A stretch of DNA of 64,000 nt from Onthophagus taurus. Taxonomy: Eukaryota; Arthropoda; Insecta; Coleoptera; Scarabaeidae. Below the pieces are notes generated by a model. That model saw only the letters and a program-made list of their open reading frames with translations, was not told where the DNA came from and did not search any database. Shown in pieces: positions 1 to 64,000 of the stretch (positions are counted from its first letter, which is position 1; the number at the start of each line of letters is the position of its first letter). Where the stretch lies: the NCBI RefSeq assembly GCF_036711975.1, contig NC_091968.1:28877001-28941000 (forward strand), given 5' to 3'. Both the position numbers and the translations under genes were made by a program.

Positions 1-462
1 TATATTTACATTAACATAAAGCCTAAATTCATTAAGGAAACAAAATAACTTTCTGAAGGAATCTAATTTAAACTTAATTTACAATAAATCTTGAGGCGTT
101 TTCGTTTTAAATTACTGATGCAAGATCTTATTAAACCTATATTGTGAATAACACAATATAAAGTTCTCTTTGTTGGATCTTGGAAAGTATTCAATTCAAG
201 TTTTTTTTTCTCTATAATACTTAGTTAAAGTTCTATAATCGTTTATAGACGTAAGGTTGATTTTTAGTGAATTATTTTTGACCATAATTGTAAATTTTGT
301 AGTGGTTAACGCTTTGATGTCATTGATAATTTCTTTATAGTTTGAAGTGTTATGTAGAAAGATAGGAGGAGGTACTTTAGGCCCTTTTTGGGAATTATTT
401 TCCAAAGAGTGGTCATTAATATCATCACTGTGTTGTCTTCACTAGCAAGAACATGGAACCTA
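1..462 (-). pseudogene. LINE (jockey/X-element type) ORF1 fragment
   Basis: Read on the minus strand, the stretch from about 405 to 196 encodes a segment with PPPIF followed by a lysine- and asparagine-rich region ending YYREKK. This is the pattern of the gag-like nucleic-acid-binding ORF1 protein of jockey/X-element non-LTR retrotransposons. A further piece reading NRFHVLASEDN lies upstream near 462-425 in another frame, and homologous-looking sequence continues below 196 after a frameshift. The copy therefore has at least two frameshifts and cannot be functional. It runs off the left edge of the window. The family call rests on motif recognition; the boundary near 462 is where the MITE-F repeat begins. 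Confidence 0.6.
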
Positions 463-694: not shown

Positions 695-1025
695 CAGAGA
701 CAAGGAAGGATAGAGATGGCCAACTCTACCTTATTAAATTGTACCTTGCGTACAGCGCCATCCGATGTCACCGCAGAGTACTAATCATAGATTAAAACCA
801 ACTTCCACTAGGATAATGGTGTAAAACTGGGCTAACCAACGATCTGGCAACATTGTTCGCTGCGCATCGATCGTTGGGGCTAACTTTAACCGCAAAATTT
901 AAAAATAACACAATTAATATTGCTTTGAAAAAAGGAAACAAATATATTTTAAATGAAAGATCTAATTTCAACATAATAATTTATTATTCACAAAACTAAT
1001 AAAATTTGGTAACATAAATAGAATA

Positions 1026-1167
1026 TAAGTATGAAGGCTTTCACGGCCGGTGTAATTAAACTAGAACTAATAGTAGCACTATCGAAGACGACTCGAAATC
1101 ACTTCGAAAATTTCTAGTTAGTGTTAGTTCTAGTGATAGTGTTACTATTAGTTCTAGTTTTAGTTCA
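1026..1167. mobile_element. Small hairpin element, copy 1, with 12-bp target duplication
   Basis: A 142-bp insertion is bracketed by direct repeats ATAAATAGAATA (1014-1025 and 1168-1179). It begins with a GGCTTTCACGGCCGG block shared with the copy at 28030. It then carries inverted arms built from tagttctag-type words: attaaactagaactaa near the left and ttagttctagttttagtt at the right. There is no coding capacity. The 12-bp duplication suggests staggered-nick, retroelement-like integration rather than a cut-and-paste transposon of the TA or 8-bp class. Confidence 0.65.
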
Positions 1168-1840
1168 ATAAATAGAATAATGTTACATTTTGTTTACCCT
1201 AACAGTTTTTGTAGCGTCTTCCTGGATGGTAATGAAAAGAAATTTGATAAGAACCGGTATCCTTTACCACTTTGTTTGTAAATGTAAAGAGCACTTCTTT
1301 TTTCTGATTTCGGGACTGGCTGCTAAAGAAATTTCTAGTTTCTTTATTCAAATATTTGAGGTTCACCAATACCTGAGGATTTTTCCTCAATTGTATTAGC
1401 TTTTGCCTTATTATTGTGGCATTTTTCTTAGCGCGACACAACGCTTTCTTTACTCCAGTTAGGTTGCAATTGCTGCAGTTCTTTGTAAAAGGTAATTTCC
1501 TCCGTTTCTTATCTACAAAAATAAAGATAATTTTAAATAAGAATGATTATTCAGTTTTTATGGTATTTACCAATTATTTCTTTTTCATCACTTAGGTGGA
1601 ACCGTTTCCAATTCATTTCTAATGAAATGACAGAATTTTCCTCACAAAATGAGGTTGAAGCAATTTCGCAACCTTGTTGTTTACTACATCCAGGATAGAC
1701 TTGCATAATTGAACTAGTTACACCAGGAAGTTTGTCGGGACATACATATGTGGGGGTATAAATATATATATATATATGGCATGTCGGGGTATAAACATAT
1801 ATAATATAGTATATAATGAATTATATAATTATGAATTATG

Positions 1841-1855
1841 AAACTAAATAATTAA
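1841..1855. repeat. Target site duplication of the Penelope-like element, left
   Basis: AAACTAAATAATTAA here is repeated exactly at 4419-4433. The pair brackets the retroelement and gives its insertion boundaries. Confidence 0.75.
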
Positions 1856-1905
1856 CTAAAGTAGTTTATTGGGATACACGACCAACACGACAAAGGCTAG
1901 ATAAT
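1854..1905. repeat. 52-bp terminal inverted repeat of the PLE, left
   Basis: This is an exact reverse complement of 4339-4390. It overlaps the start codon at 1904. Confidence 0.9.
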
Positions 1906-3831
1906 GCTTTTAGCAGATGTAGAGTCTATAATTAAAGTTTTGCCTAGTAATTTACAAAACATAAAAAGAGCTCAAGTTACAAACATTATGACTAATTTTC
2001 TTAATGGACACCAACACTTGAATAGTACCCAGCTGTTTTTGAAGAGGAGTTTGATCTCTACAAAAAGGTTTTTGAGGCTCGAAAGAGAGGACCCGATTCT
2101 TATATTAAGAGCAGATAAAGGACAGGTTATAGTAGCTATGTTTAAATCAGAATATATATCTAAGTCTTTAGACTTATTTAACGATCAGTCCACTTATTGT
2201 ATTTTGGATAGGGACCCCACTTCAAAGATACAAAACAGAAACAATAAATTTTCAAAAATTTTATTAGAAAGGGAATACATTGATAAGAGATTGTATAACA
2301 GCCTTAGATGTCACAATGGTGTCATTCCCAAATATTATGGGTTGGCGAAGATCCACAAGGTGAACTGCCCTTTGAGACCCATCATATCTTTTGTAGGTTC
2401 CCCCACATACCACTTGTCAGAGTTCCTGTCAGGTATTCTGAAACTTTCTTTTAGTGAGAGAACTTCCTACAATATCAAGGATACTTTCTCTTTTGTAGAG
2501 AAAATTAGGGATATAAAACTCCCCCTAACTTTATGCTTATCTCACTTGATGTGGTGTCTCTCTTCACCAACATACCTCTCAACTTGGTGAGAGATATATT
2601 GTTACAAAATTGGGACCTAGTAAGTTCTGTCACTCCTATTGATATGGATTTGTTTTTACAACTGATAGTGTTCTTGTTTGAGTCTTCGGTATTTACTTTC
2701 AATGATGTTATTTACAGTCAAAAATTTGGCACTCCAATGGGAAGTCCTTTGAGCCCCATCTTGGCCACTATGGTGATGGATCATCTTCTCGATCAATGTA
2801 TTCCTTTGTTGGGTTTTTCTCTTCCTTTTATCTACAAGTATGTGGACGATATAATTTGCGCTGTACCTGTCGACCGTATCGACGATGTTATGGATGTGTT
2901 CAACAACTTTGATAGTCATTTACAGTTCACGGTTGAAACTGAATCTAACTCTAGTGTTCCTTTTCTCGATACTATTGTTATAAGAAATTTAGATCAGACT
3001 ATTAGTTTAAATTGGTATACTAAGCCAACATATTCGGGGAGATATATCAACTTTCATTCAAACCATCCTCTCAATCAGAAATTGAACACTGTGGTTGCTA
3101 TGGTGAACCGTGTCAGATCCATCTCTGATGTCCGCTTTCTTGACTCTAACCTAAAAAAGCTCCGGGATACATTCGTCAACAACGGGTATCCGATAGTTCT
3201 AGTTAATAGAATTCTTTATCACAATGGTACTTACCATCGTAATATTAGTCAACCTTCTGAGGGTGACGACCAGCACGACATATCTAGCCTCCCTGGCCTC
3301 CGGACCCACTTTGTTAAGATTCCCTTCGTCCCCAGGCTGACTGATAAACTTGTTTCAGTTCTGAGGTGTGACTCGGTTAAGTTTGCTAAATGCAATTCCT
3401 TTCCTTTATCCACCTGTTTTTCTAGGACTAAGGATTTGGTTCCTAAAGGTTTACAATCTAATGTTATTTATAGGGTTCCTTGCAATAATTGCGAAAAAAC
3501 CTATATAGGCACTACCAGTCAGTATTTTGATGCTAGGATCAAACAACATAAACGTGATTGTCAATCTAGAGATGAAAACAAGAGTGCGTTGGTTCATCAC
3601 CATGTTCTCAGTGGTCACCATTTTAATTTTGAGAATTCTCAGATTGTTGATAAAGAATCAATTTATTCAAAGAGATTGTTCTTAGAGATGTTTTACATCA
3701 ATAAAGAGGTTAACTCCTTAAACTTCAGAACTGACACCCAAAACCTTAGCTCTATTTACAGTTACCTTGTTATGAAGGACTGGGGTAGAAGGGATCAAAC
3801 ATCAATTGTGGGTGATTCGTTGGTTTTCTAG
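1904..3831 (+). pseudogene. PLE reverse transcriptase with GIY-YIG endonuclease, frameshifted
   Basis: Two overlapping frames (1904-2590, then 2533-3831) together encode about 640 residues. The first has the PLE N-terminal segment RADKGQVIVAM and PKYYGLAKIHK. The second continues the polymerase palm with LISLDVVSLFTNIP, GTPMGSPLSP and the catalytic YVDD. It ends in a GIY-YIG nuclease: VIYRVPCNNCEKTYIG, with an arginine downstream (DARIKQHKRD). The frames are offset at about 2520-2530 by what looks like one lost base in a C run, leaving the rest open. The protein would copy RNA at a nicked target. As read here it is broken, but only by this single lesion. Confidence 0.9.
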
Positions 3832-4338
3832 TTCTTTTTCGGTTTTTGTTTCCTTTTTCATAATTTCAATTTTATTCCCCCTCTCAACGCCACCTAGTGG
3901 TCACTTTTGGTGTATTTGGTGTTTCGCCGTGATGACGGTTGGCCAGCCTTGTTTCTTTTCCAGTTTTTGTGGTATAAAAAACTTACGTGACTTATTGCCT
4001 CTTAACTTTTAACGAAAAATTTTAACGTGTTCTCTTTGTAAGTAATAATTTTTTAATAGTTTCAAAATTAACTTTGTAATGATTTTTAGTATCTTTTGAT
4101 CTTTAATTGCTCACCTTTAGTGAATTATTAGAAGTATAAGATATGTTTAGTGCTCAAAGTTTGCGACCTCATGTTTAGCTTTGGTTCGGTTCCTTTATGC
4201 AATCCATTTTTGTAAGTTGTTCAATTGTTTTGCTTGTTAACTATTGTAACTTTTGTTCTTCAATATTGTAGTTACCTATGAAGAAGGAAAAATAAAATTT
4301 CCGAAAGCTCGGTAAAGATAAAAGGAAGCCTCTTTTCA

Positions 4339-4390
4339 ATTATCTAGCCTTTGTCGTGTTGGTCGTGTATCCCAATAAACTACTTTAGTT
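4339..4390. repeat. 52-bp terminal inverted repeat of the PLE, right
   Basis: This is an exact reverse complement of 1854-1905. Confidence 0.9.
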
Positions 4391-4418
4391 CCTAACAGTA
4401 ACGACCGTTACTACTCCT

Positions 4419-4433
4419 AAACTAAATAATTAA
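4419..4433. repeat. Target site duplication of the Penelope-like element, right
   Basis: This 15-bp sequence is identical to 1841-1855. Confidence 0.75.
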
Positions 4434-22200: not shown

Positions 22201-25200
22201 TAGAAAAGATTTACTTTTTGTCTGTGGGATTCGAGTTGAAAATGAAGCAGTACTACAATCATCATTATCTGAGTTTTTCTTCTTTCTACGTTTTAATTAA
22301 TGTTTACAAATGTAAATCTTGTTGGTTTTTAGTTTGAAAAGAATATAATTTGTTCCAGATCGCACTTTTCGTGTCGTTATCAATAAACAAACTACATTTT
22401 CTAGGGCAGACAAGTTCATTAGGATTAATTTTTCCAGAAACAAGGTTACCTTTGTAGTTTGTGTACTCTTCACCTTTCAGTCTTGCTTTCCTTATGACTT
22501 ATTACGTTTATATTTATTTTCATTTACAACACCTCGTTTTTATAGGAATAATGCTAAAATTCGTTTCAATATATTTTTGTTTAAACTAACTTTTAAAGAT
22601 GCAATTATATTATCAGTTAAATTCATTTAGTTATCATAAAAACAACCTTATTCTCCAGTAGTTAACCCCCGATCTTTACGAAAGCATGTTTAGGTTGCTG
22701 TTAACTTAGATTTCAAATTAAATAAATCTTAAATTATGAGACAAATTTGTTTAACAGACTTTCAAGCATAAAATCGATGGAATCCGAAGGATAACTTCGC
22801 ATCCTACGATGCCCCTTTGTAAGTTCTCCAATTAAGTTAATAAAAATTATACCAAATTAATTTTTTTAATTAAAATTTAGATTTAACTGGTGGTCAAGAT
22901 GGATCTGTTCAATTATGGGAGTGGGGTCATAGTCAAGCTGTCGCGTGCCCAAGAGAATCGGGGACTTACGCTAAAGTTACAAGATTGAGATTTTCCCAAC
23001 AGGGTAATAAGTTTGGGGTTGCCGATTCAGATGGAAATTTAAGCCTTTTCCAATGTGGTTTAAAAGCAAATTCAACCAGACCCTTCTTTGTAAGAATTAT
23101 TTACAGTGAATTTCACTTAAGATGCAATACTAATTTTGTCCCACATAAAATACAACATGTCAATATAATTTGACATTACAGTAAAAGTCGATAAAACGGA
23201 TCAATACGCAGAGTTCGTTATAGCGCAATAAAAATATACAACTATTTAGCGCTGAATAACAAATTATTTCAGATGTCTTTAGATGCACAGCTTAACCTAA
23301 ATGTTTTCAGTTCTAGATAAGTGTTAGTTCTAATTTTAATTGTTGTGCAGCGCTAGATCTAACACTATACCTAGAACTAGAAACATTCGGGTTTAGCCGT
23401 CTTAAGATACGTTTACAAATTGTGAGTTCTAGGCTCATCTTTTGATTATTTTTAAAATTAAAAGCAATGATAATTTATTTTACTATTTAATTCGGTGGTA
23501 TTTTCGAAAATTTCGAACGACTAGCGTTCTTCATCAGGCACGACTATGGGAAATGAACCCAAGGAATGTTTACACACAGGGTGAGTCAGAAAGAATGGGA
23601 ACTCCGAATACCGGAGATACTAGATACCAAAATATGATGATTTAACGTAACATCTCTTATACAAATGTAAGTGGTTTTCGAGGCATAGGGTGTTGAAAGT
23701 TAAATTCTTATTTCGAAATTTCTTCATAATTTTCAAGGTTTTTGTACTATTAACATAAAATTTGGTAGTTTTATGTTTTCGAGCATGAGAAATACGAATT
23801 TGAAACTTGTTTTGTTATTGCTCGTAGAGGGCACTAGATACTAGGGATGCAACATCGCTCATAAAAACATCGATATTAGAACATCGATGTTTTCCAAAAG
23901 TGAAACATCGATGTCGAAAACATCGACTTATTATACCGATACATCGATGTTTAAAAAAAATATTCAGTGGCTGAATTTTTATTATAAGAATTATCACAAT
24001 AATCAATAATATTTGGACAGCGTTCTGCATCACTTGACTAAGCGACAAATAATAATAATAATAACTTTATTATCATAAATTTAATCACTAAAACTAGACA
24101 CAAAATGATGACGATTTGTGTAAAAATTTTTGAAGAAAATAATCTAGAGTTTGATTTTGTACTTTTAAACTGGTTTTTATTTTATATAGAATTTAAGTCT
24201 AACCAGTTTCGGCCCTTGGCCATCTTCAGAGACTCTACAAATAGATTAACATCTCTCATCTTATCCATTTTACAAACAAGTTTCTTAATATTTCTTTTTG
24301 TTTTGTTAAAAAAGATCACATATCAATGTCGAAATCAGATTATTTATTAGTTACTAATTTCCAAAATTAAAGTTTAAAAAGTTGTAAAATGAAACTAAGG
24401 ACGAAGTATTACAAGTTTGCAGATTAAAATTTAAGAACGCTCTTTTTTAACGAAAGAAATATTAAGAAACTTGGGAAAAATTCAAGAATCATCATGTGGC
24501 TTAAAAATCGACGACTTTTTTTAATCAATGTGAAATGTCCCAAAAAACATGTTAAAAATATAAAGAAAGTGCGGAAAAGTGACTAAGTCTAGATTAACTT
24601 CAGTTATAAAACTTCTATTACATGATAATTAACTTCAGGTTTAAAATGTCAACCTCACTTTTGACATATTTGTAATATTCATTAAAAATCCATTAAAATG
24701 AGTGCAAACACAACATATTTATCTTCAATATTAATGAAGTAATGCTCAACTTCCGGTTAAGAATGTCAATTTTGACATATTTGTAATCGTCGTGAAAAAT
24801 TCTTTAAAATAAGTCCAAACATGTTATATTTAATTCCAATATTAATCGAGATATATACTTCCGCTTGGAAATGTCAATGTCATTTTGATAATATATTCAT
24901 AATTTTTATAAAATGTCTTAATATTTGTCACAAAAACAAAAGTATAATAAAAAAAATAAAAAATTAAGGTTGGTATTAATATTTAAAAATTAAATTGCTA
25001 TCTTCATTGTTGCTAACTTAGGGTTTAATGTTTTTTATTCTAACTTTTTTGTTTTTTGAGATAAGTGCGTCATCTTTGGACTCATTTTAAAGGTTTTTTA
25101 ATGAAGATGACAAATATCTCAAAATTGACGTTGACGTATAATAATACACTTATAGGTACTTAAGTACACTTTTAGGTTATACGAAGATGTAAGTTTTGTT

Positions 25201-28200
25201 TCAACATTTTTTTTCTCAATATTTTTCCAATCCAACCCAACAATTATTATACATCATTGTAAAGAAAAAGCTTTGAGCTTTAATTTAGAATAAGTCTCAT
25301 TCCTTAATTTCAATAAATACGGCTCCCAGAAATTTTTAAATTAGCATCTTTTTTGACACATTTAGGATATACGAAAATATAAGCTTTGTTTCAACATTTT
25401 TTTTCTCAATATTTTTCCAATCCAACCCAACAATTATTATACATCATTTTAAAGAGAAAGCTTTGATCTTTAATTTAGAATAAGTCTCATTCCTTAATTT
25501 CAATCAATACGGCTTCCAGGAATTTTTAAATTAGCATCTTTTTTGACACTTTTAGGTTATACGAAAATGTAAGTTTTGTTTCAACATTTTTTTTCTCAAT
25601 ATTTTTCCAATCCAACCCAACAATTATTATACATCATTGTAAAGAGAAAGCTTTGAGTTTTAATTTAGTATAAGTCTCATTCCTTAATTTCAATAAATAC
25701 GGCTCCCAGGAATTTTTAAAGCTTTTTAGCTTAGAATTTATAGCTTTTTTTTGACATTTTTAGGTTATTCGAAAATGTAAGTTTTGTTTCAAAATTTTTT
25801 TTCCTAATATTTTTCCAATCCAACCCAACAATTATTATACACCATTTTAAAGAGAAAACTTTAAGCTTTAATTTAGACAACTCTTATTCCTTAATTTCAA
25901 TAAATCCGTGATTGGCGCTTAGCTTTATCTTTTAAAACAAATAGTATTTTAGGTCTTTCGGTATTCTGCATTTTTTCTAAGATGTACTTACCAGACAGCA
26001 TGAAAATCTCCAAAAACGATAAAATGTCGATTAGTCAAGTGATGTATAACACGGTCCATTTATTATAATATGATAAAACACATAGATAATGTTATTTAAA
26101 TTTATTTTTAAGTATGGCATTCAAAAACCTTAACTTTGACAACTTGGTGCCTAATAAGCGATTCCTTTCCTGATTAATTGTTGCGCCAACTTCTGTGAAT
26201 AATCGTTCGTTAGACACTGAAGTTGCTAACAGTGGCAAATATTTCATTGTTCTTTTATACAAACATGGTAATTATGGTCGATTATTTTATCAAACATCGA
26301 AGATAAAATATCGTTCATAATGAACGATGTATCGATATTTTATGGACTTCAACATCGCTATTAAAACATTGATGTTTATGAACGATACATCGATGTTTTC
26401 GAAAAATCGATGTATCGTTTGCATCCCTACTAGATACACGCTGCTCGTTTCATAAATCGAATCATAAGTTTTTTGGCTCGACAGCTACGACCAATAAGAC
26501 CTGCAAATCACAAAGAGCATTCAATTTTACATAAAAAAGGTACTCTTATTGAAATTGTCTAAGTCTATCGGTTTTCGAATTATTTACTTTTAAATGTTTA
26601 AATGTATTTTTTCTTCTAAAATATTTATTTTTTAACATAAGCAAAGTTGGGTTATTTTTCTGCTTATGTTTCGACAACTGCATGTTAATTGTTAACATTG
26701 ATCTAATTTTCGTGTGCAATAATCATTTTTACCAACAATAAAGTTATTACCAATTTGAAAATGCCACGACATAATGAGTTTTTTAATAGTTAAAAATCCA
26801 GATTTAAGTCCACTGGATTTTTGAAAATGGTCACAATATTCTATTGTTATTATTATCTATTATTATCGTTACTAATTGCTATAGTTAGTATGTTATTGAT
26901 TTTAAATGTTAACCTTAAAATTACTTTGAAACAATTAAAAGGACTTAGACAATGTAAGCAAGAGTACCTTTTTTGTGCAGAATTGTAAACTCCTTCAGAT
27001 TTCTGGTTCTAATTCACCATACCTCAACTGACAAAATAGTTATGACTTGATATTTCAAACGTACAGTGTGTATCTAGCGAGTAATCACAAAACAAATATC
27101 AAACTCGTGTTTCTCATGCTCGAAAATATCTAACTACCAAATTTTATGTAAATAGTACAAAAACCTTCAAAATTATCAAGAAATTTCGAAATAAAAATTT
27201 AACTTTCAACACCCTGTGTATTAAAAACCACCGATATTTTTATAAGACATGGTAGGTTAAATCGTCATATTTTGGTGTCTAGTGTCTCCGGTATTCGGAT
27301 TTCCCATTCTTTTTGACTCACCCTGTATAATAACAAACAGAAATAAAACATAATTACTAGAAAAACGTCTGTTTCCCGTTCTTAAAGTATAATTAGTAAA
27401 AACCGGAAGTGCAAATTTAAAAAATAAAACGAAATAAAATCTCTGAAAAAACTCTCTCCGAATAAATTGAGAAAAATTATTTAAAATTTAAATGGGGTCC
27501 CTCCATTCATGGTTTCTTGTTTTCAAAGTATTATACAGGGTGTGTCAAATGTCTGGAATATAGCCAATAACTTCGCTATTTGTGGTTTTAAAGAAAAATG
27601 TTTCAAATAAAAGTTTCTTTATTAATTGTGGCGCATTTTTTGGCGATATTTGCTTAAACAAGCAATTTACATTATTTGTTGTTTCGTTACTATGGCAACC
27701 AACATTGTTATTTGAAATGGGATACATATGTTTTTTTTTGCATATTTTGATAGAAGATAAATCCCTCCACGCGATGAACATATCAAATCATATGGTTATA
27801 TAAGAAAAAAATCGGGAAAAAATGCGTTTTCTGAAAATATTAAATTACAGCAAATTAAATCAAAGTAGGCGCCGAAATAGCGCCGTTGACTTTAAGCTTT
27901 AAATGTCAAAAAATTGACAATTTAAACAAATATGGCGCAATTAAGCGAACAGCAAAGAATCCAAATATTAATGCTGTATGGGTATGGTGATAGAAAATGC
28001 ACTCAAAGTGTTCAATAATGTTCAATACTAGTACGAAGGCTTTCACGGCCGGTGTGAATTAAACTAAAATTAGAACTAAATACTTCGAACCAGTTTCTGA
28101 AGAAGGTTGCAACATGACATCCGAAACGTCAAACCTTTTATTAAAAGACGCACGGCAAAACCCGAAAGTTTCTAGTGTTAGTTCTAATTTTGGTTTAATG

Positions 28201-31200
28201 TTCAATACTGTTCAATAATATTTACCCGGATACACAATCCACAGTATCCAAAATATTAAAAAAATTCCTTAACACCGAAATTGTTAAAAACCTTCCAAAA
28301 AGTGGACGGCTGAAGACAGCTACCAATGACGAAACTACATTAAATGTGTGTCACCGTACCCATACATTATTAATTATTCATAATTGTTGAAACTGTCATT
28401 TTTTGACATTTAAAGCTGTCAACGGCGTTATTTCGGTGCCTACTTTGATTGTAAATTACCGATTTAATATTTTCAGAAAACGTATTTTTCTCGATTTTTT
28501 CCTTATACAACTATATGATTTGATATGTTCATCGTAAAGAGGGTTTTATCCTTTATTAAAATGTGCAAAAAAAAAACATATGCATCCCATTTAAAATAAC
28601 AATGTTGGTTGCCATAGCAACGAAACAAAAAACAATACAAACAAGTAAATACCGACAAAAAATACGCCACGATTAATAATGATACTTGTATTTGAAACAT
28701 TTTTCTTTAAAACCACAAATGGCGAAGTTATTGGATATATTCCAGACGTTTGACGCAGCCTGTATAAAAATATGTTAAAATTAAAAACAGAAAACAATTC
28801 CAAACCTGTAGAGACAAACAAAATGATTTAATATATGAAATTTAGAAAACGAAAGTTTAAACTTACATTAAAACATAAAATTTAAAACAACTTGAGTCTG
28901 CATAATCAGGCGCAAAAGAGACGTACGGCTAAACCTAAATGTTTCAAATTCTAGGTCTAACGTTAGTTCTAATGACCATGCAGGTGTAAAACTAGAACTG
29001 ACACTATACCTAGAACTAGAATCATTTGGGTTTAGCCGTCTTTAGAGACGTGCTGCTAAACTCAAATGAGCAATAAATAATAGCAATATACAAAACCTAA
29101 TGCTAACTAGCTGTATTTAGCACTGTCAGTAGAACTAACACTAGAACTAGAATCATTCGGATTTAGCCGTCTTAAAAGATGTGCGGCTAAACCCGAAGGT
29201 TTCTAGTTCTAGGTCTAGTGTTAGTTCTACTTTTATACTAGCACTATCACTAGAACTAGCACAAGACCTAGAACTAGAAACATTCGGCTTTCGCCGTCTT
29301 AAAAGATGTGCGGCTAAATCCGAATGTTTCTAGTTCTAGGTCTAGTGTTAGTTCTAGTTTGAGTCTGATAGAAATATATAACAACCTAGAGCTATCAATA
29401 CCAACTAGCACTATGTAGTATTGCTACTAGAACTAATACTAGACCTAGAACTAGAAACATTCGGGTTTAGCCGTCTTGAGAGACTTGCGGCTAAATCCGA
29501 ATGTTTCTAGTTCTAGGTCTAGTGTTAGTTCTAGTTTTGCACTATTACTGGAACTAACACAAGACCTAGAACTAACATAAGACCTGGAACTAACATAAGA
29601 CCTAGAACTAACACAAGACCTAGAACTAGACTCATTCGGCTTTAGTCGTTTTGAGAGACGTGCGGCTAAATCCGAATGTTTCTAGTTCTAGGTCTAGTGT
29701 TAGTTCTAGTTTTGCACTAGCACTATCACTGGAACTAACACAAGAGGTAGAACTAAAACCATTCGGCTTTAGCCGTCTTGAGAGACGTGCGGCTAAATCC
29801 GAATGTTTCTAGTTCTCGGTCTAATGTTAGTTCTAGTGTTACACTGGCACTATCACTAGAACTAACACAAGACCTAGAACTAGAATCATTCGGGTTTAGC
29901 CGTTTTGAAAGACGTGCGGCTAAACCCGAATGTTTCTAGTTCTACTGTTAATTCTAGTTTTACACTACCACTATCACTACAACTAACACAAGACCTAGAA
30001 CTGGAATCATTCGGGTTTAGCTGTCTTGAGAGACGTGCGGCTAAACCTGAATGATTCTAGTTCTAGGTCTTGTGTTAGTTCTAGTTCAATAGAAGTAAAA
30101 ATCAATAAAGCGGTGTCTAATGCTAACTAGTTCTACTTAGCATTATCATTGGAACTAACACTAGTAGTTTTTCAAATTTGTCCAGGAATTAAACTAAACT
30201 CCTAAAGGAATACGCCTAAATGTTGACGAAAGTAGAAATGAATTTTAATTATAAAAAGGAGTTCCTCTGAGATCTGACGGTGAGCTATTTCTTTTGATAT
30301 CTTTTAATCCCTTTGTTTCCCTAAATGTTAGTTTTTGCTCCTTAATTGTTTTTACTCATTAGTTAATTTGTTAAATTAATCTGATAATTTCATGGTAATT
30401 TCAGTCGTGCCTGAAGAAGGAAAGAAATTTCCGAAACATATATTTATATTTATATTTTACTTTATTATATATTTTACGATGAACACCGAATCTACTATAT
30501 CTAAATAACACTAGTAGACCTAGGACTAGAACCAGAAACTTCGTCTCTTAAGACGGAAACTCGGAGTTATCATAAAAACGTCACTTTCTCCAAGCAAAAC
30601 TTTTCCTTTCCAAAACTACCCTATCCCTGTACTATTAAGCTATGTTGCATTTTATGCGGGACAATGCATTCATATATTGCAAGTTATATGAAATTCTCGG
30701 TATAAATCAATCACAAAAAATACATTGATTTATTTTTAGACTCATCAATGTCACAATAAAGGAATCACCGATTTCGTCTTTTTAAATTCATGCAGTTTAT
30801 TAGCAACGGGTAAAAATAAAAAATTGATTTATTTACTTTTTTAATAATTATTTTTGTAGCTGGGCATAGTTCTGAAAGTAAAAACGTTTGTATTTGGGAT
30901 ACGATCCTTCCGAAAGGAAAGTGTTTAACGGTGGCTTTAACCTGTCACGAACAAGGCGCTAGCAGCATGGTTTACGCCCCTCAACACCAAATTTTAATAA
31001 CCGCGGGTAAAAAGGGCGATATCTGCCTCATTGATACGCGTTCAAAAACGATTCATCATCGATTCCAAGCACACGAAACAGCCGTTAAATGCCTCGCGAT
31101 TGATCCGCATGAAGAATTTTTCGCCACCGGGTCTGCCGATGGAGATATTAAGGTTAAATTTTTAATTTTATTTAAATTTTTTAATTTATTTCTTTTGTAT

Positions 31201-46698: not shown

Positions 46699-47589
46699 TT
46701 TAAATGATTTAATATAAACTCAATGAAAAGATTGACAATTTTAACTGGAACTTAACCTCCAAATTTTTAAATGAAGTTGTCACTTGACAGCATAGCGCCA
46801 TCTATTGAGTGTAAAACACTTTTTATGAAAAAATTTAATTATTTAAACTAAATTGTTGTTTTCTTTAAACATTATTATTAATTTATAACGCTATTCAAAT
46901 GAGGATGATGAAAATTATAATTAAAAACTTGAGAATTAAAATTTAAAATATTGTATGACCTTGTAGTACTAAAGAGGTTATGTCACGAATATTGTGTTTA
47001 ATAAAGAGAATTTTAAGAAAAAGTTGTTGATAAGGTGAATCACAAAAAAGATGCTCTATATGCTCGGAACATCATGATATACAAACTCATAGAAAATAGC
47101 TTCGTAGAAATGCAACTTTCTAAACAAAAACTTCGTACTAAAAATTGAATGCATGTGGCGCCATCTGTTGGGGATATTTCGGAATTATACAGCTAAGAAC
47201 CGAACCACTAGAATACAGGTTGGATTGGGTTTATATATAAAACCTCCAACCATAGAATAACTGTTTGGAAAGTGTTTGGAGTCACTATGGGACTCCAATT
47301 AACGTTCCGACTAGTTGGGAATTCCTCAGATGCAATTACCTATGGCAATTACACCTGTCAAATAATGCCGCCACATTTGAATATCACACTGCATCATATT
47401 ATGACATGTGAGATTGCATCTGACGAGCTTCCAACCAATTATAATGTTAGCTGCAACAAAGCTATAATGTTAATTATAATCTAATTATTTAATCATACCA
47501 TTATTACTTTATTATATGTACTCTTACCGAAAAATCACTTTAAAATGACGTTTTCATCTGTCATTCTGAACAACTTTTAAAATTTGAAT
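46699..47589. other. Interval upstream of the HAUS6-like gene
   Basis: It would contain that gene's promoter. It holds two gcgccatctnttg-type sequences (46796, 47159), words common in insect repeats, but no defined element. The frame at 47272-47484 shows no recognisable domain. Confidence 0.4.
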
Positions 47590-50500
47590 TTTTTTCTCAA
47601 TATTTTTCCAATCAAACCCAACAATTATTATACATCATTTTAAAGAGAAAGCTTTGAGCTTTAATTTAGAATAAGTCTCTTTCCTTAATTTCAATCAATA
47701 CGGCTTCCAGCTATTTTTAAATTAGCATCTTTTTTTGATATTTTTAGGTTATTTGAAAATGTAAGTTTTATTTCAATATTTTTTTTCTCTATATTTTTTC
47801 AATCCAACCCATCAATTATTATACATCAATTTAAAGAGAAAGCTTTGAGCTTTAATTTAGAATAAGTCTCATTCCTTAATTTCAATAAACACGGCTTCCA
47901 GGAATTTTTAAATTAGCATCTTTTTTGATATTTTTAGGTTATTCGAAAATGTAAGTTTTATTTCAAAATTCCTTTTCTCTATATTTTTCCAATCTAACCC
48001 ATCATATATTATACATCATTTTAAAGAGAAAGCTTTGAGCTTTAATTTGAAACAAGTTTCATTCCTTAATTTCAATAAACACGGCTTCCAGGAATTTTTA
48101 AATTAGCATCTTTTTTAACACTTTTAGGTTATTCGAAAATGTGAGTTTTATTTCAACATTTTTTTTCTTTATATTTTTCCAATCCAACCCAACAATTATT
48201 ATACATCATTTTAAAGAGAAAGCTTTAAGCTTTAACTTAAAATAAGTTTCATTTCTTAATTTCAATAAATACGGTTTCCAGGAATTTTTAAATTAGCATC
48301 CTTTTTGACACTTTTAGGTTATAGGAAAATGTAAGTTTTATTTCAACAATTTTTTTCTCAATATTTTCCAATCCAACCCAACAATTATTATACATCATTT
48401 TAAAGAGAAAGCTTTGAACTTTAATTTAGAATAAGTTTCATTTCTTAATTTCAATAAATACGGCTTCCAGGAATTTTTAAAGTAGCATCTTTTTTGACAC
48501 TTTTAGGTTATACGAAAATGTAAGTTTTATTTCAACATTCTTTTTCTTATTATTTTTCCAATCCAACCCATCAATTATTATACATCATTTTAAAGAGAAA
48601 ACTTTGAGCTTTAATTTAAAATAAGTTTCATTCCTTAATTTCAATAAATACGGCTTCCAGGAATTTTTAAATTAGCATCTTTTTTGACACTTTTAGGTTA
48701 TACGAAAATGTAAGTTTTGTTTCAACAATTTTTTTCTCAATATTTTTCCAATCCAACCCAACAATTATTATACATCACTTTAAAGAGAAAGCTTTGAGCT
48801 TTAATTTAGAATAAGTCTCATTCCTTAATTTCAATAAATACGGCTTCCAGGAATTTTTAAATTAGCATCTTTTTTGACACTTTTAGGTTATACGAAAATG
48901 TAAGTTTTATTTCAACATTCTTTTTCTCATTATTTTTCCAATCCAACCCATCAATTATTATACATCATTTTAAAGAGAAAGCTTTGAGCTTTAATTTAGA
49001 ATAAGTCTCATTCCTTAATTTCAATAAATACGACTTCCAGAAATTTTTAAATTAGCATCTTTTTTGACACTTTTAGGTTGTACGAAAATGTAAGTGTTGT
49101 TTCAACATTTTTTTTCTCAATAATTTTCCAATCCAACCTAACAATTATTATACATCATTTTAAAGAGAAAGCTTTGAGCTTTAATTTGAAATAAGTTTCA
49201 TTCCTTAATTTCAATAAACACGGCTTCCAGGAATTTTTAAATTAGCATCTTTTTTGACACTTTTAGGTTATTCGAAAATGTAAGTTTTATTTCAACATTT
49301 TTTTTCTCAATATTTTTCCAATCCAACCCAACAATTATTATACATCATTTTAAAGAGAAAGCTTTGAGCTTTAATTTAGAATAAGTCTCATTCCTTAATT
49401 TCAATAAATACGGCTTCCAGGAATTTTTAAATTAGCATCTTTTTTGACACTTTTAGGTTATACGAAAATGTAAGTTTTATTTCAACATTCTTTTTCTCAT
49501 TATTTTTCCAATCCAACCCATCAATTATTATACATCATTTTAAAGAGAAAGCTTTGAGCTTTAATTTAGAATAAGTCTCATTCCTTAATTTCAATAAATA
49601 CGGCTTCCAGGAATTTTTAAATTAGCATCTTTTTTGACACTTTTAGGTTATACGAAAATGTAAGTTTTATTTCAATATTCTTTTTCTCATTATTTTTCCA
49701 ATCCAACCCATCAATTATTATACATCATTTTAAAGAGCAAGCTTTGAGCTTTAATTTAGAATAAGTCTCATTCCTTAATTTCAATAAATACAGCTTCCAG
49801 GAATTTTTAAATTAGCATCTTTTTTGATATTTTTAGGTTATTCGAAAATGTAAGTTTTATTTCAACATTCTTTTTCTCATTATTTTTCCAATCCAACCCA
49901 TCAATTATTATACATCATTTTAAAGAGAAAGCTTTGAGCTTTAATTTAAAATAAGTTTCATTTCTTAATTTCAATAAATACGGTTTCCAGGAATTTTTAA
50001 AATAGCATCTTTTTTGACACTTTTAGGTTATACGAAAATGTAAGTTTTGTTTCAACATTTTTTTTCTCTATATTTTTCCAATCCAACCCAACAATTATTA
50101 TACATCATCTTAAAGAGAAATCTTTAAGCTTTAATTTAGAATAAGTTTCATTCCTTAATTTCAATAAATACGGCTTCCAGGAATTTTTAAATTAGCATCT
50201 TTTTTGACACTTTTAGGTTATTCGAAAATGTAAGTTTTATTTCAACATTTTTTTTCTCAATATTTTTCCAATCCAACCCAACAATTATTATACATCATTT
50301 TAAAGAGAAAGCTTTGAGCTTTAATTTAGAATAAGTCTCATTCCTTAATTTCAATAAATACGGCTTCCAGGAATTTTTAAATTAGCATCTTTTTTGACAC
50401 TTTTAGGTTATACGAAAACGTAAGTTTTATTTCAACATTCTTTTTCTCATTATTTTTCCAATCCAACCCATCAATTATTATACATCATTTTAAAGAGAAA

Positions 50501-51559
50501 GCTTTGAGCTTTAATTTAAAATAAGTTTCATTCCTTAATTTCAATAAATACGGCTTCCAGGAATTTTTAAATTAGCATCTTTTTTGATATTTTTAGGTTA
50601 TTCGAAAATGTAAGTTTTGTTTCAACAATTTTTTTCTCAATATTTTTCCAATCCAACCCATCAATTATTATACATCATTTTAAAGAGAAAGCTTTGAGCT
50701 TTAATTTAAAATAAGTTTCATTTCTTAATTTCAATAAATATGGTTTCCAGGAATTTTTAAAGTATCATCTTTTTTGACACTTTTAGGTTATACGAAAATG
50801 TAAGTTTTATTTCAAAATTTTTTTTCTCATTATTTTTCCAATCCAACCCATCAATTATTATACATCATTTTAAAGAGAAAACTTTGAGCTTTAATTTAAA
50901 ATAAGTTTCATTCCTTAATTTCAATAAATACGGCTTCCAGGAATTTTTAAATTAGCATCTTTTTTGACACTTTTAGGTTATACGAAAATGTAAGTTTTGT
51001 TTCAACATTTTTTTTCTCAATATTTTTCCAATCCAACCCAACAATCATTATACATCATTTTAAAGAGAAAGCTTTAAGCTTTATTTTAGAATAAGTCTCA
51101 TTCCTTACTTTCAATAAATACGGTTTCCAGGAATTTTTAAAGTAGCATCTTTTTTAACACTTTTAGGTTGTACGAAAATGTAAGTTTTGTTTCAACATTT
51201 TTTTTCTCAATATTTTTCCAATCCAACCCAACAATTATTACACATCATTTTAAAGAGAAAGCTTTGAGCTTTAATTTAGAATAAGTTTCATTCCTTAATT
51301 TCAATAAACACGGCTTCCAGGAGTTTTTAAATTAGCATGTTTTTTGACACTTTTAGGTTATACGAAAACGTAAGTTTTGTTTCAATAATTTTTTTCTCAA
51401 TATTTTTCCAATCCAACCCATCAATTATTATACATCATTTTAAAGAGAAAGCTTTAAGCTTTATTTTAGAATAAGTCACATTCCTTAATTTCAATAAATA
51501 CGGCTTCCAGGAATTTTTAAATTAGTATCTTTTTTGACACTTTTAGGTTATACAAAAAT
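47590..51559. repeat. 190-bp satellite, array A
   Basis: About 21 head-to-tail units with a strict 190-bp period over most of the array (gaatttttaaattagcatct at 48661, 48851, 49041 with one change, 49231, 49421). Unit landmarks are ttttccaatccaaccca, attattatacatcatttta, aagagaaagctttgagcttt and tcattccttaatttcaataa. Units differ by a few substitutions (caaccc-aacaa versus caaccc-atcaa classes). It ends 421 bp before the sulfotransferase 2 start codon. No coding capacity. Confidence 0.95.
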
Positions 51560-51980
51560 ATTGTTTGATTGTCTTTTAATGTAGTGAATAATAATAGCTA
51601 CTAGAATAATAATCGGTAATTTAAACCCAATGACTGGCAAATAATGACAAGTTTCCAAATCCCATTGCCAAGCCTTATCATTGTGAAGAAGACGAAGAAA
51701 AAAAGTTGTTAAAATGTTATCTTTAGTTGATTGTAAAAATGGAAAAAATAATAAAGTAAGATACAAAATCGATAAAAATGTTTTACATCAATAAATTGAG
51801 GATTAGTATCTAAAATTAAGCTCGAACGTAATAAATTATCGTGTAGAAACAGTTTTATCTCTAATTTATTAGATAATAGCAGATGAAGTACAAGATAGCA
51901 TTTAATCATTAAATTTGTTATATTTGAGTTGATTCGTTAAAATTACTAAATTTCGATTATTAAAGCAATTTTAAAATAAC
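51560..51980. promoter_or_regulatory. Sulfotransferase 2 upstream flank
   Basis: The only unique sequence between satellite array A and the start codon at 51981, so it should contain the promoter. No TATA box or other defined element stands out. Open frames on the minus strand here appear to be chance. Confidence 0.35.
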
Positions 51981-53010: not shown

Positions 53011-53108
53011 AAAAAATATAAAACAACATTTAATCATAAATTTTAAAATTAATAATTTAAATGATCAAGATAATAAAATTGCGTGTATATAAAGAAATTT
53101 TATTCATT
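53000..53108. repeat. 109-bp direct repeat, copy 1 (sulfotransferase 2 stop and 3' UTR)
   Basis: It begins in the last codons of sulfotransferase 2, includes an AATAAA signal and a gtgtatataaag motif, and differs from 56814-56922 by a single base. The satellite array starts directly after it. Confidence 0.9.
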
Positions 53109-56100
53109 AAAGAGAAAGCTTTGAGCTTTAATTTAAAATAAGTTTCATTCCTTAATTTCAATAAATACGGCTTCCAGGAATTTTTAAATTAGCATCTTTT
53201 TTAATATTTTTAGGTTATACGAAAATGTTAGTTTAATTTCAACATTTTTTTTCTCTATATTTTTCCAATCCAACCCATCAATTATTATACATCATTTTAA
53301 AGAGAAAGCTTTGAGCTTTAATTTAAAATAAGTTTCATTCCTTAATTTCAATAAATACGGCTTCCAGGAATTTTTAAATTAGCATCTTTTTTAATATTTT
53401 TAGGTTATACGAAAATGTTAGTTTTATTTCAACATTTTTTTTCTCTATATTTTTCCAATCCAACCCATCAATTATTATACATCATTTTAAAGAGAAAGCT
53501 TTGAGCTTTAATTTAAAATAAGTTTCATTCCTTAAATTCAATAAATATGGCTTCCAGGAATTTTTAAATTAGCATCTTTTTTGACACTTTTAGGTTATAC
53601 GAAAATGTAAATTTTGTTTCAACATTTTTTTTCTCAATATTTTTCCAATCCAACCCAACAATTATTATACATCATTTTAAAGAGAAAGCTTTGAGCTTCA
53701 ATTTAGAATAAGTCTCATTCCTTAATTTCAATAAATACGGCTTCCAGGAATTTTTAAATTAGCATCTTTTTTAATATTTTTAGGTTATACGAAAATGTTA
53801 GTTTTATTTCAACATTTTTTTTCTCTATATTTTTCCAATCCAACCCATCAATTATTATACATCATTTTAAAGAGAAAGCTTTGAGCTTTAATTTAAAATA
53901 AGTTTCATTCCTTAATTTCAATAAATACGGCTTCCAGGAATTTTTAAATTAGCATCTTTTTTGATATTTTTGGGTTATTCGAAAATGTAAGTTTTATTTC
54001 AACATTTTTTTTCTGTATATTTTTCCAATCCAACCCATCAATTATTATACATCATTTTAAAGAGAAAGCTTTAAGCTTTAATTTAGAATAAGTCTCATTC
54101 CTTAATTTCAATAAATACGGCTTCCAGGAATTTTTAAATTCGCATCTTTTTTGATATTTTTAGGTTATTCGAAAATGTAAGTTTTATTTCAACATTCTTT
54201 TTCTCATTACTTTTCCTATCCAACCCATCAATTATTATACATCATTTTAAAGAGAAAACTTTGAGCTTTAATTTAAAATAAGTTTCATTCCTTAATTTCA
54301 ATAAATACGGCTTCCAGGAATTTTTAAATTAGCATCTTTTTTAATATTTTTAGGTTATACGAAAATGTTAGTTTTATTTCAACATTTTTTTTCTCTGTAT
54401 TTTTCCAATCCAACCCATCAATTATTATACATCATTTTAAAGAGAAAGTTTTAAGCTTTAATTTAAAATAAGTCTCATTCCTTAATTTCAATAAATACGG
54501 CTTCCAGGAATTTTTAAATTAGCATCTTTTTTGATATTTTTGGGTTATTCGAAAATGTAAGTTTTATTTCAACATTTTTTTTCTGTATATTTTTCCAATC
54601 CAACCCATCAATTATTATACATCATTTTAAAGAGAAAGCTTTAAGCTTTAATTTAGAATAAGTCTCATTCCTTAATTTCAATAAATACGGCTTCCAGGAA
54701 TTTTTAAATTAGCATCTTTTTTGATATTTTTGGGTTATTCGAAAATGTAAGTTTTATTTCAACATTTTTTTTCTGTATATTTTTCCAATCCAACCCATCA
54801 ATTATTATACATCATTTTAAAGAGAAAGCTTTAAGCTTTAATTTAGAATAAGTCTCATTCCTTAATTTCAATAAATACGGCTTCCAGGAATTTTTAAATT
54901 CGCATCTTTTTTGATATTTTTAGGTTATTCGAAAATGTAAGTTTTATTTCAACATTCTTTTTCTCATTACTTTTCCTATCCAACCCATCAATTATTATAC
55001 ATCATTTTAAAGAGAAAACTTTGAGCTTTAATTTAAAATAAGTTTCATTCCTTAATTTCAATAAATACGGCTTCCAGGAATTTTTAAATTAGCATCTTTT
55101 TTAATATTTTTAGGTTATACGAAAATGTTAGTTTTATTTCAACATTTTTTTTCTCTGTATTTTTCCAATCCAACCCATCAATTATTATACATCATTTTAA
55201 AGAGAAAGTTTTAAGCTTTAATTTAAAATAAGTCTCATTCCTTAATTTCAATAAATACGGCTTCCAGGAATTTTTAAATTAGCATCTTTTTTGATATTTT
55301 TGGGTTATTCGAAAATGTAAGTTTTATTTCAACATTTTTTTTCTGTATATTTTTCCAATCCAACCCATCAATTATTATACATCATTTTAAAGAGAAAGCT
55401 TTAAGCTTTAATTTAGAATAAGTCTCATTCCTTAATTTCAATAAATACGGCTTCCAGGAATTTTTAAATTCGCATCTTTTTTAATATTTTTAGGTTATAC
55501 GAAAATGTTAGTTTTATTTCAACATTTTTTTTCTCTATATTTTTCCAATCCAACCCATCAATTATTATACATCATTTTAAAGAGAAAGCTTTGAGCTTTA
55601 ATTTAAAATAAGTTTCATTCCTTAATTTCAATAAATACGGCTTCCAGGAATTTTTAAATTAGCATCTTTTTTGACACTTTTAGGTTATACGAAAATGTTA
55701 GTTTTATTTCAACATTTTTTTTCTCTATATTTTTCCAATCCAACCCATCAATTATTATACATCATTTTAAAGAGAAAGCTTTGAGCTTTAATTTAAAATA
55801 AGTTTCATTAATTAATTTCAATAAATACGGCTTCCAGGAATTTTTAAATTAGCATCTTTTTTAATATTTTTAGGTTATACGAAAATGTTAGTTTTATTTC
55901 AACATTTTTTTTCTCTATATTTTTCCAATCCAACCCATCAATTATTATACATCATTTTAAAGAGAAAGCTTTGAGCTTTAATTTAAAATAAGTTTCATTC
56001 CTTAATTTCAATAAATACGGCTTCCAGGAATTTTTAAAGTAGCATCTTTTTTGACACTTTTAGGTTATTCGAAAATGTAAGTTTTATTTCAACATTTTCT

Positions 56101-56804
56101 TTCTCTATATTTTTCCAATCCAACCCATCAATTATTATACATTATTTTAAAGAGAAAGCTTTGAGCTTTAATTTGAAATAAGTTTCATTCCTTAATTTCA
56201 ATAAATACGGCTTCCAGGAATTTTTAAATTAGCATCTTTTTTGACACTTTTAGGTTATACGAAAATGTAAGTTTTATTTCAAAATTTTTTTTCTCTATAT
56301 TTTTCCAATCCAACCCATCAATTATTATACATTATTTTAAAGAGAAAGCTTTGAGCTTTAATTTGAAATAAGTTTCATTCCTTAATTTCAATAAATACGG
56401 CTTCCAGGAATTTTTAAATTAGCATCTTTTTTGACACTTTTAGGTTATACGAAAATGTAAGTTTTGTTTCAACATTTTTTTTCTCAATATTTTTCCAATC
56501 CAACCCAACAATTATTATACATCATTTTAAAGAGAAAGCTTTGAGCTTTAATTTAGAATAAGTCTCATTCCGTAATTTCAATAAATACGGCTTCCAGGAA
56601 TTTTTAAATTAACATCTTTTTTGATATTTTTAGGTTATTCGAAAATGTAAGTTTTATTTCAACATTTTTTTTCTCTATATTTTTCCAATCCAACCCATCA
56701 ATTATTATACATCATTTTAAAGAGAAAGCTTTGAGCTTTAATTTGAAATAAGTTTCATTTCTTAATTTCAATAAACACGGCTTCCGGAAATTTTTGAGTT
56801 AGCT
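53109..56804. repeat. 190-bp satellite, array B
   Basis: About 19 units of the same family as array A, bounded on both sides by the 109-bp direct repeat. Rare variants recur at exactly 760 bp (ttctcattacttttcctatc at 54201 and 54961; ttctctgtat at 54391 and 55151), showing a recent tandem duplication of a four-unit block. Confidence 0.95.
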
Positions 56805-63349: not shown

Positions 63350-64000
63350 TGTTAATACTAGAACTAACACAAGACCGAAAACTAGAATCATTCGGGTTTA
63401 GCCGCACGTCTCTCAAGACGGCTAAACCCGAATGATTCTAGTTTTAGGTCTTGTGTTAGTTCTAGTGATAGTGCTAAGTAGCGCTAGTTGGCGTTAGATA
63501 TCACTATGTTGCATATTTTTATTGAATTAAAACTAGAACTAACACTAGACCTAGAACTAGAATCGTTCGAAACTTGCACTGTCATTAGAATTAACACAAG
63601 ACCTAGAACTAGAAATATTCGGGTTTAGCCGTCTTGAGAGAGGTGCGGCTAAACCCGAATGATTCTAGTTGTAGGTCTAGTATTAATTCTAATATTGCAC
63701 TAAAACTATCATTAGAACTAACACAAGACCTAGAACTAGAATCATTCGAGTTTAGCCGTCTTAAGAGACGTGCGGCTAAATCCGAATGATTCTAGTTCTA
63801 GGTCTAGTGTTAGTTCTAGTTTTGCACTAACACTATCACTAGTACTAACACAAGACCTAAAGACATTCGGATTTAGCCGTCTTGAGAGACGTGTGGCTAA
63901 ACCCGAATGTTTCTAGTTCTAGGTCTAGTGTTAGTTCTAGCTTTGCACTAGCACTATCATTAGAACTTTACTAACACAAGACCTAGAACTAGAATCATTC
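63350..64000. repeat. Hairpin array, second large cluster
   Basis: At least four palindromes of the same family as 28895-30180. The first (about 63357-63470) has arms of ~50 bp with the loop in the opposite sense (gcacgtctctcaagacggc), so units occur in both orientations. It continues past the right edge of the window. Confidence 0.85.

Follow-up and report, generated by a model that had tools for sequence, protein, structure and literature searches.

Short foldback insertions in the genome of Onthophagus taurus, probably truncated and dual-primed copies of a Penelope-like element

Introduction

The window analysed here is a stretch of 64,000 nucleotides from the scarab beetle Onthophagus taurus (RefSeq assembly GCF_036711975.1, contig NC_091968.1, positions 28,877,001 to 28,941,000). 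It contains two short elements, 1026-1167 (142 bp, copy 1) and 28030-28195 (166 bp, copy 2), which share a start block and lie within perfect flanking duplications of 12 and 14 bp respectively. An initial annotation made from the sequence had placed them to the base. It had described them as retro-type elements with foldback arms and target duplications, linked to a Penelope-like element (PLE), all of which we retain, and had suggested a non-autonomous retrozyme-like family, a reading that we do not share. Taken together, their features suggest that a PLE of the Penelope/Poseidon type probably gave rise to them as truncated foldback insertions, dual-primed on the 5′ leader of its mRNA.

Foldback stubs of this kind record both ends of single PLE insertion events. 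In Adineta vaga, Pen2a_Av and related Penelope elements carry an optional 31-bp extension, or tail, on one of their inverted pseudo-long terminal repeats (pLTRs), as described in the accessible part of PMC3846280. PAc, a Poseidon element of Anolis carolinensis, has been studied in vitro: both target strands are cut and extended, and two adjacent internal start sites are used, the tail being the segment between them and the main start lying 111-118 nt into the open reading frame (ORF) (PMC11167929). The anole PLE also includes a hammerhead in which stems I and II and loop II have been named (PMC11167929).

Results

Two elements with a common start block

The start block GGCTTTCACGGCCGG occurs on the + strand at 1036-1050 and 28038-28052 and nowhere else in the window with up to one mismatch. 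The duplications, ATAAATAGAATA around copy 1 and TAATGTTCAATACT around copy 2 (Table 1), each have two + strand occurrences in the window. Among 20,000 random pairs of 16-bp segments taken 140-260 bp apart in the window, 133 share at least 12 bp, a figure raised by satellites.

The CTGAAGA...GAAAC order that the initial annotation had seen in one element is indeed present, at 28097-28127 and in copy 2 alone. Read by eye, the core letters are stem I GUUU/AAAC, CUGAAGA, GAAAC and GUC, without a stem III loop. The PLE start codon sits in the loop of this hammerhead-like core, as ATGACATCC in copy 2 and ATGGCATCC in most of the leaders fetched. Two more CTGAAGA-stem-GAAAC sequences are found in the window, at 30411-30437 (+) and 24206-24229 (-); the one at 30411 resembles by eye a stretch GAAGAAGG...TTTCCGAAAG near 4280-4307 of another PLE in the window.

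The start block corresponds to a PLE tail

In the genome (291 Mb, 33 contigs) the start-block 15-mer has 589 exact copies while its reversed control has none, so that the block is not a chance match. It is the reverse complement of a PLE tail of ~31 nt. In the first eight loci and in 20 longer loci inspected, the opposite-sense block CCGGCCGTGAAAGCC stands at the end of retroelement sequence, and several loci (for example L004 and L006) have reverse transcriptase (RT)-like ORFs beside it. A fragment of L006 matches RVT_1 of Pfam (E 2.8e-12), which places an RT domain in a long relative of the same family, and a CGKVYVGQTGR stretch can be seen by eye in long relatives.

The start codon context CAACATGGCATCC and the tail block occur together in 68 leaders. 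The tail is in the same frame as the start codon in 62 of the 68, and the frame is open in 53; coding sequence continues beyond the tail in L004, L023, L039 and L049, three of these four carrying stops or a shift. The in-frame position of the tail within the start of an ORF, together with the RT-bearing relatives, identifies the block as a PLE tail. Its distance from the ATG falls into two main classes, 91 nt (21 of 68 leaders) and 103 nt (35 of 68). The inner edge of the tail thus lies ~85 or 97 nt, and the outer edge ~116 or 128 nt, into the ORF, two positions for each because the number of in-frame 12-nt serine repeats varies. The serine-rich stretch ahead of the tail varies by such units in, for example, L014, L058 and L049. 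The tail itself folds as a hairpin, TTCAC-ACCGGCC-GTGAA. Four 15-mer spellings of the tail block were not found in the literature text searched, and a tail 21-mer had no match among IMG/VR contigs.

The parent PLE family is found elsewhere in the genome, for example at L001, L004, L006, L011 and L014. The near-intact PLE of the window was examined as a candidate parent and rejected: it belongs to a different family, with 29% identity over the RT stretch compared and a different tail. This element occupies 1856-4418 between two copies of a 15-bp duplication, AAACTAAATAATTAA, at 1841 and 4419 (1841-4433 with the duplications). It has two overlapping ORFs in different frames, with RVT_1 and GIY-YIG matches both just below gathering scores. 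Its plan is that of the stubs: a tail-less arm on the left, an arm with a 30-nt hairpin tail on the right, and inverted ends of 52 bp.

Table 1. Parts of the two foldback elements and their positions in the window
Feature	Position	Strand	Basis
Left 12-bp target-site duplication, copy 1, ATAAATAGAATA	1014..1025	.	exact repeat
Copy 1: foldback from a PLE subfamily of greater divergence, with the tail on the left and no tail on the right arm	1026..1167	-
Right 12-bp target-site duplication, copy 1	1168..1179	.	exact repeat
Left 14-bp target-site duplication, copy 2, TAATGTTCAATACT	28016..28029	.	exact repeat at 28196
PLE tail, copy 2 (PLE sense is the - strand), holding the GGCTTTCACGGCCGG block	28030..28058	-	same block ends other PLE copies
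Short arm, copy 2: leader sequence of the PLE adjoining the tail on its upstream side, truncated at ~+108	28059..28080	-	arm coordinates
Junction base assigned to neither arm, copy 2	28081
Long inverted arm, copy 2: from putative RNA start (ACTTCGAACCAG, +1) to inner edge of the tail site; tail-less end	28082..28195	+	arm end +1, position
Hammerhead-like core CTGAAGA...GAAACGTC within the long arm, copy 2	28097..28130	+	no match to Rfam hammerhead models
Right 14-bp target-site duplication, copy 2	28196..28209	.	exact repeat

A single tail in each foldback

We examined 137 tail copies: 95 from loci on contig C1, the two of the window and 40 from C2 and C3 loci (L001-L129 and the window). The last 40 were chosen from exact 30-mer matches and were fetched once the C1 pattern had been noted. 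A duplication was counted if it was exact, at least 11 bp long and within 700 bp. Loci that share a flank or junction (L051/L095/L101, L063/L064, L002/L036 and L005/L009/L028/L062/L083) were kept in the counts.

Forty-two of the 137 copies are flanked by a duplication. The duplications measure 12 bp (20 copies), 13 bp (18), 14 bp (3) and 17 bp (1), and the copies span 54-673 bp, with a median of 203. Thirty-six are foldbacks, their inverted arm starting at the inner tail edge, and a second tail is found in none of the 42. A foldback ends on one side at the outer edge of the tail and on the other, inverted, at its inner edge. In the C2/C3 copies the inner-edge inverted arm is present in 8 of 10 that are duplication-flanked. 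A very small foldback of 74 bp, L016, consists of an inverted arm of ~45 nt joined to little beyond the tail. Inverted pLTRs with a tail of ~31 bp at a single end are a feature of PLEs of the Penelope/Poseidon kind, and this is the arrangement seen here.

Since these 137 copies had been selected by their tail, arms were also paired without regard to it. An arm pattern, AAACTAARATTAGAACTAA, has 644 exact places in the genome, and 245 when the tail junction is added. Pairing was carried out on C1, the contig for which all places of both patterns were listed. All 20 neighbouring +/- arm pairs within 5 kb hold exactly one exact tail, and the exact tail junction is present on 36 of the 95 C1 arms overall. 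Twenty further arms were chosen by their leader core, away from any listed exact tail, and their ends were read by eye: 11 stop at the inner edge, five have a mutated tail, one has a tail fragment and three have neither.

Arms often stop at a putative initiator

With arm coordinates counted from the C of CACTTCGAACCAG, 49 of 185 anchor matches fall in a cluster of arm ends at -3..+3. The other 136 comprise 34 that are full-length or cut by the edge of the locus, 44 from +60 onwards, many of which fall in a hairpin satellite and not in the PLE, and 58 that are scattered, seven of these at +47..+51. The clustering was also examined genome-wide in windows of 3 nt, by counting the places that differ from the read-through sequence: 150 differ at the initiator, compared with 7 (28-30), 5 (34-36), 3 (45-47), 14 (48-50) and 4 (51-53) in five other windows. 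Such counts mix point mutations with true ends. A difference in at least two of the three bases is seen in 59 of the first 100 listed initiator places, and in 4, 2, 1, 4 and 0 places of the other five windows in the same order. Twelve of these 100 places lie in one C4 stretch (G000:C4:1985000-2545000), ~25-85 kb apart and with the same three letters before the initiator; these twelve stubs may be one amplified locus.

The stop site is an initiator-like TCACTT ~30 nt downstream of a TATA box, TATATATA (L014), which suggests that PLE transcripts start at TCACTTCG, the putative initiator. By a motif test, an arm stops at the initiator in 26 of the 36 foldbacks; by coordinates, this is so in 17 of 36 rows of the first mapped set and in 6 of 10 rows of the C2/C3 set. 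In many cases a complete arm is paired with a truncated one, as in copy 2 of the window (+1 and +108). No two of the 46 mapped duplication-flanked rows share the same pair of arm ends and the same junction letters, so that they look like independent insertions from ordinary PLE RNA and not like descendants of a single short master. Where an arm extends beyond the initiator (for example in L001, L006, L010 and L014), its sequence continues into the 3′ end of another ORF copy lying upstream, which is what a requirement for tandem read-through RNA in making full copies would predict. Several PLE ends, in the flanks of L049, L090, L144 and L145, abut caccctg/TATA, which may be a repeated target site inside another repeat.

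Discussion

Alternative origins

The hammerhead-like core of copy 2 raises the question of whether these elements could form a non-autonomous, retrozyme-like family, whose unit RNA would be delimited by hammerhead cleavage, then circularised and mobilised in trans by PLE enzymes. Metazoan non-LTR retrozymes are similarly short, with a hammerhead-like motif and duplications of >4 bp (accessible part of PMC7229834), and in the beetle the CTGAAGA/GAAAC core is accompanied by a stem I, GUUU/AAAC, that directly flanks GUC. Seven arms end at +47..+51, and the predicted cut window 48-50 has its 14 differing places against 7, 5, 3 and 4 in the other four windows. A peak of hammerhead-cut ends at +50 was nevertheless reduced to an ambiguous excess by these genome-wide counts: five of the 14 places (ATC) are possible CpG transitions, five (TTC) are single-base differences, and only four differ in at least two bases, compared with 4, 2, 1 and 0 elsewhere. 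Ends at the initiator and at either edge of the tail predominate (150 places at the initiator against 14 at the cut), no two mapped junctions are alike and copy 1 lacks the motif altogether. Rfam at gathering score gave no match in the whole window, and a permissive Rfam search (up to E 10) of 27990-28230 of the window and of L010:4500-5100 gave no hammerhead, the matches on both stretches being weak snoRNA, sRNA and U6 ones alone, far below gathering scores. Retrozymes as described are small tandem repeats with type I hammerheads and circular RNAs (PMC7229834, in the part accessible), whereas the elements here are foldbacks bounded by the initiator and the tail. A separate retrozyme-like family is accordingly very improbable. 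A milder version, in which dual-primed insertions are made from several RNA 5′ ends of which some are hammerhead-cut, would accommodate the slightly raised numbers of arm ends at +47..+51 and of differing places in window 48-50, but that excess rests on single-base cases, and the anole study found no RNA reads starting or ending at the presumptive cut (PMC11167929); we regard such a mixture as rather unlikely.

Inverted structures have also been attributed, in a proposal made in 2013 for the Adineta PLEs (accessible part of PMC3846280), to self-priming on antisense PLE RNA. Inverted, head-to-head pLTRs are common, and a few copies are nearly symmetrical (the second copy of L010, L125 and L129). 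In these three, however, the two arms both reach the RNA start, an outcome equally predicted by dual priming, while many foldbacks are strongly asymmetric, with arm ends such as +1/+108 in copy 2 of the window and 0/+102 in L069. Self-priming also gives no reason why exactly one tail should be found in 20 of 20 arm pairs, and we think it an improbable origin. Inverted arms, short size and target duplications would equally suit a miniature inverted-repeat transposable element (MITE) or another foldback DNA transposon. The same terminal inverted repeat at both ends and a fixed duplication length, which characterise MITEs, are not what is observed: the ends are unlike each other (two tails in none of the 42), arm lengths and junctions vary, duplication length varies too, although mostly between 12 and 14, and the tail is PLE coding sequence. 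The probability of such an origin is close to negligible.

Dual priming on the PLE leader, which we consider the probable origin, has several observations to contend with. Although 42 tail copies are duplication-flanked, the other 95 of the 137 have no duplication of at least 11 bp within 700 bp, many of them having been fetched at 451-771 bp and some being longer, old or internal tails. A clear inverted arm is missing from six of the 42 (L054, L068, L076, L078, L104 and L123), L068 and L078 carrying just 5-6 nt of it. By the motif test, neither arm stops at the initiator in ten of the 36 foldbacks; arms of the older subfamily align poorly to the references. Joins without extra letters account for just 4 of 36 rows of the first mapped set, and the filler letters at junctions, up to 49 nt in L129, are without explanation. 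The single fragment searched for a GIY-YIG domain (L006:1715-2263:-) had no Pfam match at 1e-3; the CGKVYVGQTGR stretch read by eye may point to such a domain. For PAc in vitro, the strands did not differ in start site (PMC11167929), whereas each insertion here has one outer and one inner end. Lastly, the initiator, the priming and the joining are all read from DNA.

A possible insertion mechanism

We propose that the PLE protein would cut both target strands 12-14 nt apart, and that both 3′ ends would then prime reverse transcription on PLE mRNA, the outer of two internal start sites being used by one end and the inner by the other. The templates would often begin at the initiator, and the 5′ leader of the mRNA would be copied. 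Counted from the putative RNA 5′ end, the two start sites lie at ~118-130 nt and 149-161 nt (for the two repeat-length classes). With start sites so near this end, a monomeric transcript would limit the cDNA on each strand to about 120-160 nt. These cDNAs would meet, often one complete and one truncated, and be joined, usually with filler; full-length copies would require a template beginning in a tandem copy further upstream. The insertion ends match the published pattern of two internal start sites.

A more general formulation would make two-sidedness and asymmetry a rule of PLE insertion: at each event a paired ribonucleoprotein would start one cDNA from the outer and one from the inner edge of the tail hairpin, a monomer would by default yield a short foldback stub, and a full copy would arise from tandem read-through RNA alone. 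We judge this stronger claim to be evenly balanced between right and wrong. If true, the need for tandem read-through would explain why PLEs persist as tandems.

The Adineta elements are the closest in arrangement (PMC3846280, accessible part). Like those studied here, they have direct and inverted pLTRs, a one-sided optional tail, a pLTR that extends into the first codons and a target duplication, and their pLTR also carries TATATATA followed by an initiator-like TCACT. They differ in being mostly arranged around a long ORF with duplications of 8-10 bp, while the beetle insertions are short, lack the rest of the ORF and have duplications of mostly 12-13 bp. With respect to PAc, the main start at 111-118 nt into the ORF can be compared with an outer edge at ~116 or 128 nt here, and in both cases the ORF start lies within a hammerhead (PMC11167929) or, in the beetle, a hammerhead-like core recognised by eye.

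Inverted pLTRs, the one-sided optional tail and the two internal start sites are already published, as the accessible parts of these sources indicate; the additions made here are the one-tail count and the initiator stop. The literature searched, in the parts accessible and with many subscription papers outside it, holds no one-tail count and no initiator-stop census, and nowhere ascribes short stubs to the nearness of the start site to the RNA 5′ end; these are weak negatives. The stubs offer two regularities, one tail per foldback and a preferred 5′ end of the template, against which purified PLE enzyme can be tested. They also illustrate that PLE stubs can pass for retrozymes or MITEs.

Other features of the window

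A palindromic tandem satellite with a period of 127 bp occupies 28916-30086 and 63353-64000. Its two halves are similar to the PLE leader, read in both orientations (56 of 66 and 40 of 47 positions identical to the L027 leader), and it may have grown from a PLE foldback. The window also contains an ORF for a chemosensory receptor of the 7tm_7 type, and two arrays of a ~190-bp satellite, 47589-51570 and 53107-56803, which are ~94% alike and flank a sulfotransferase ORF.

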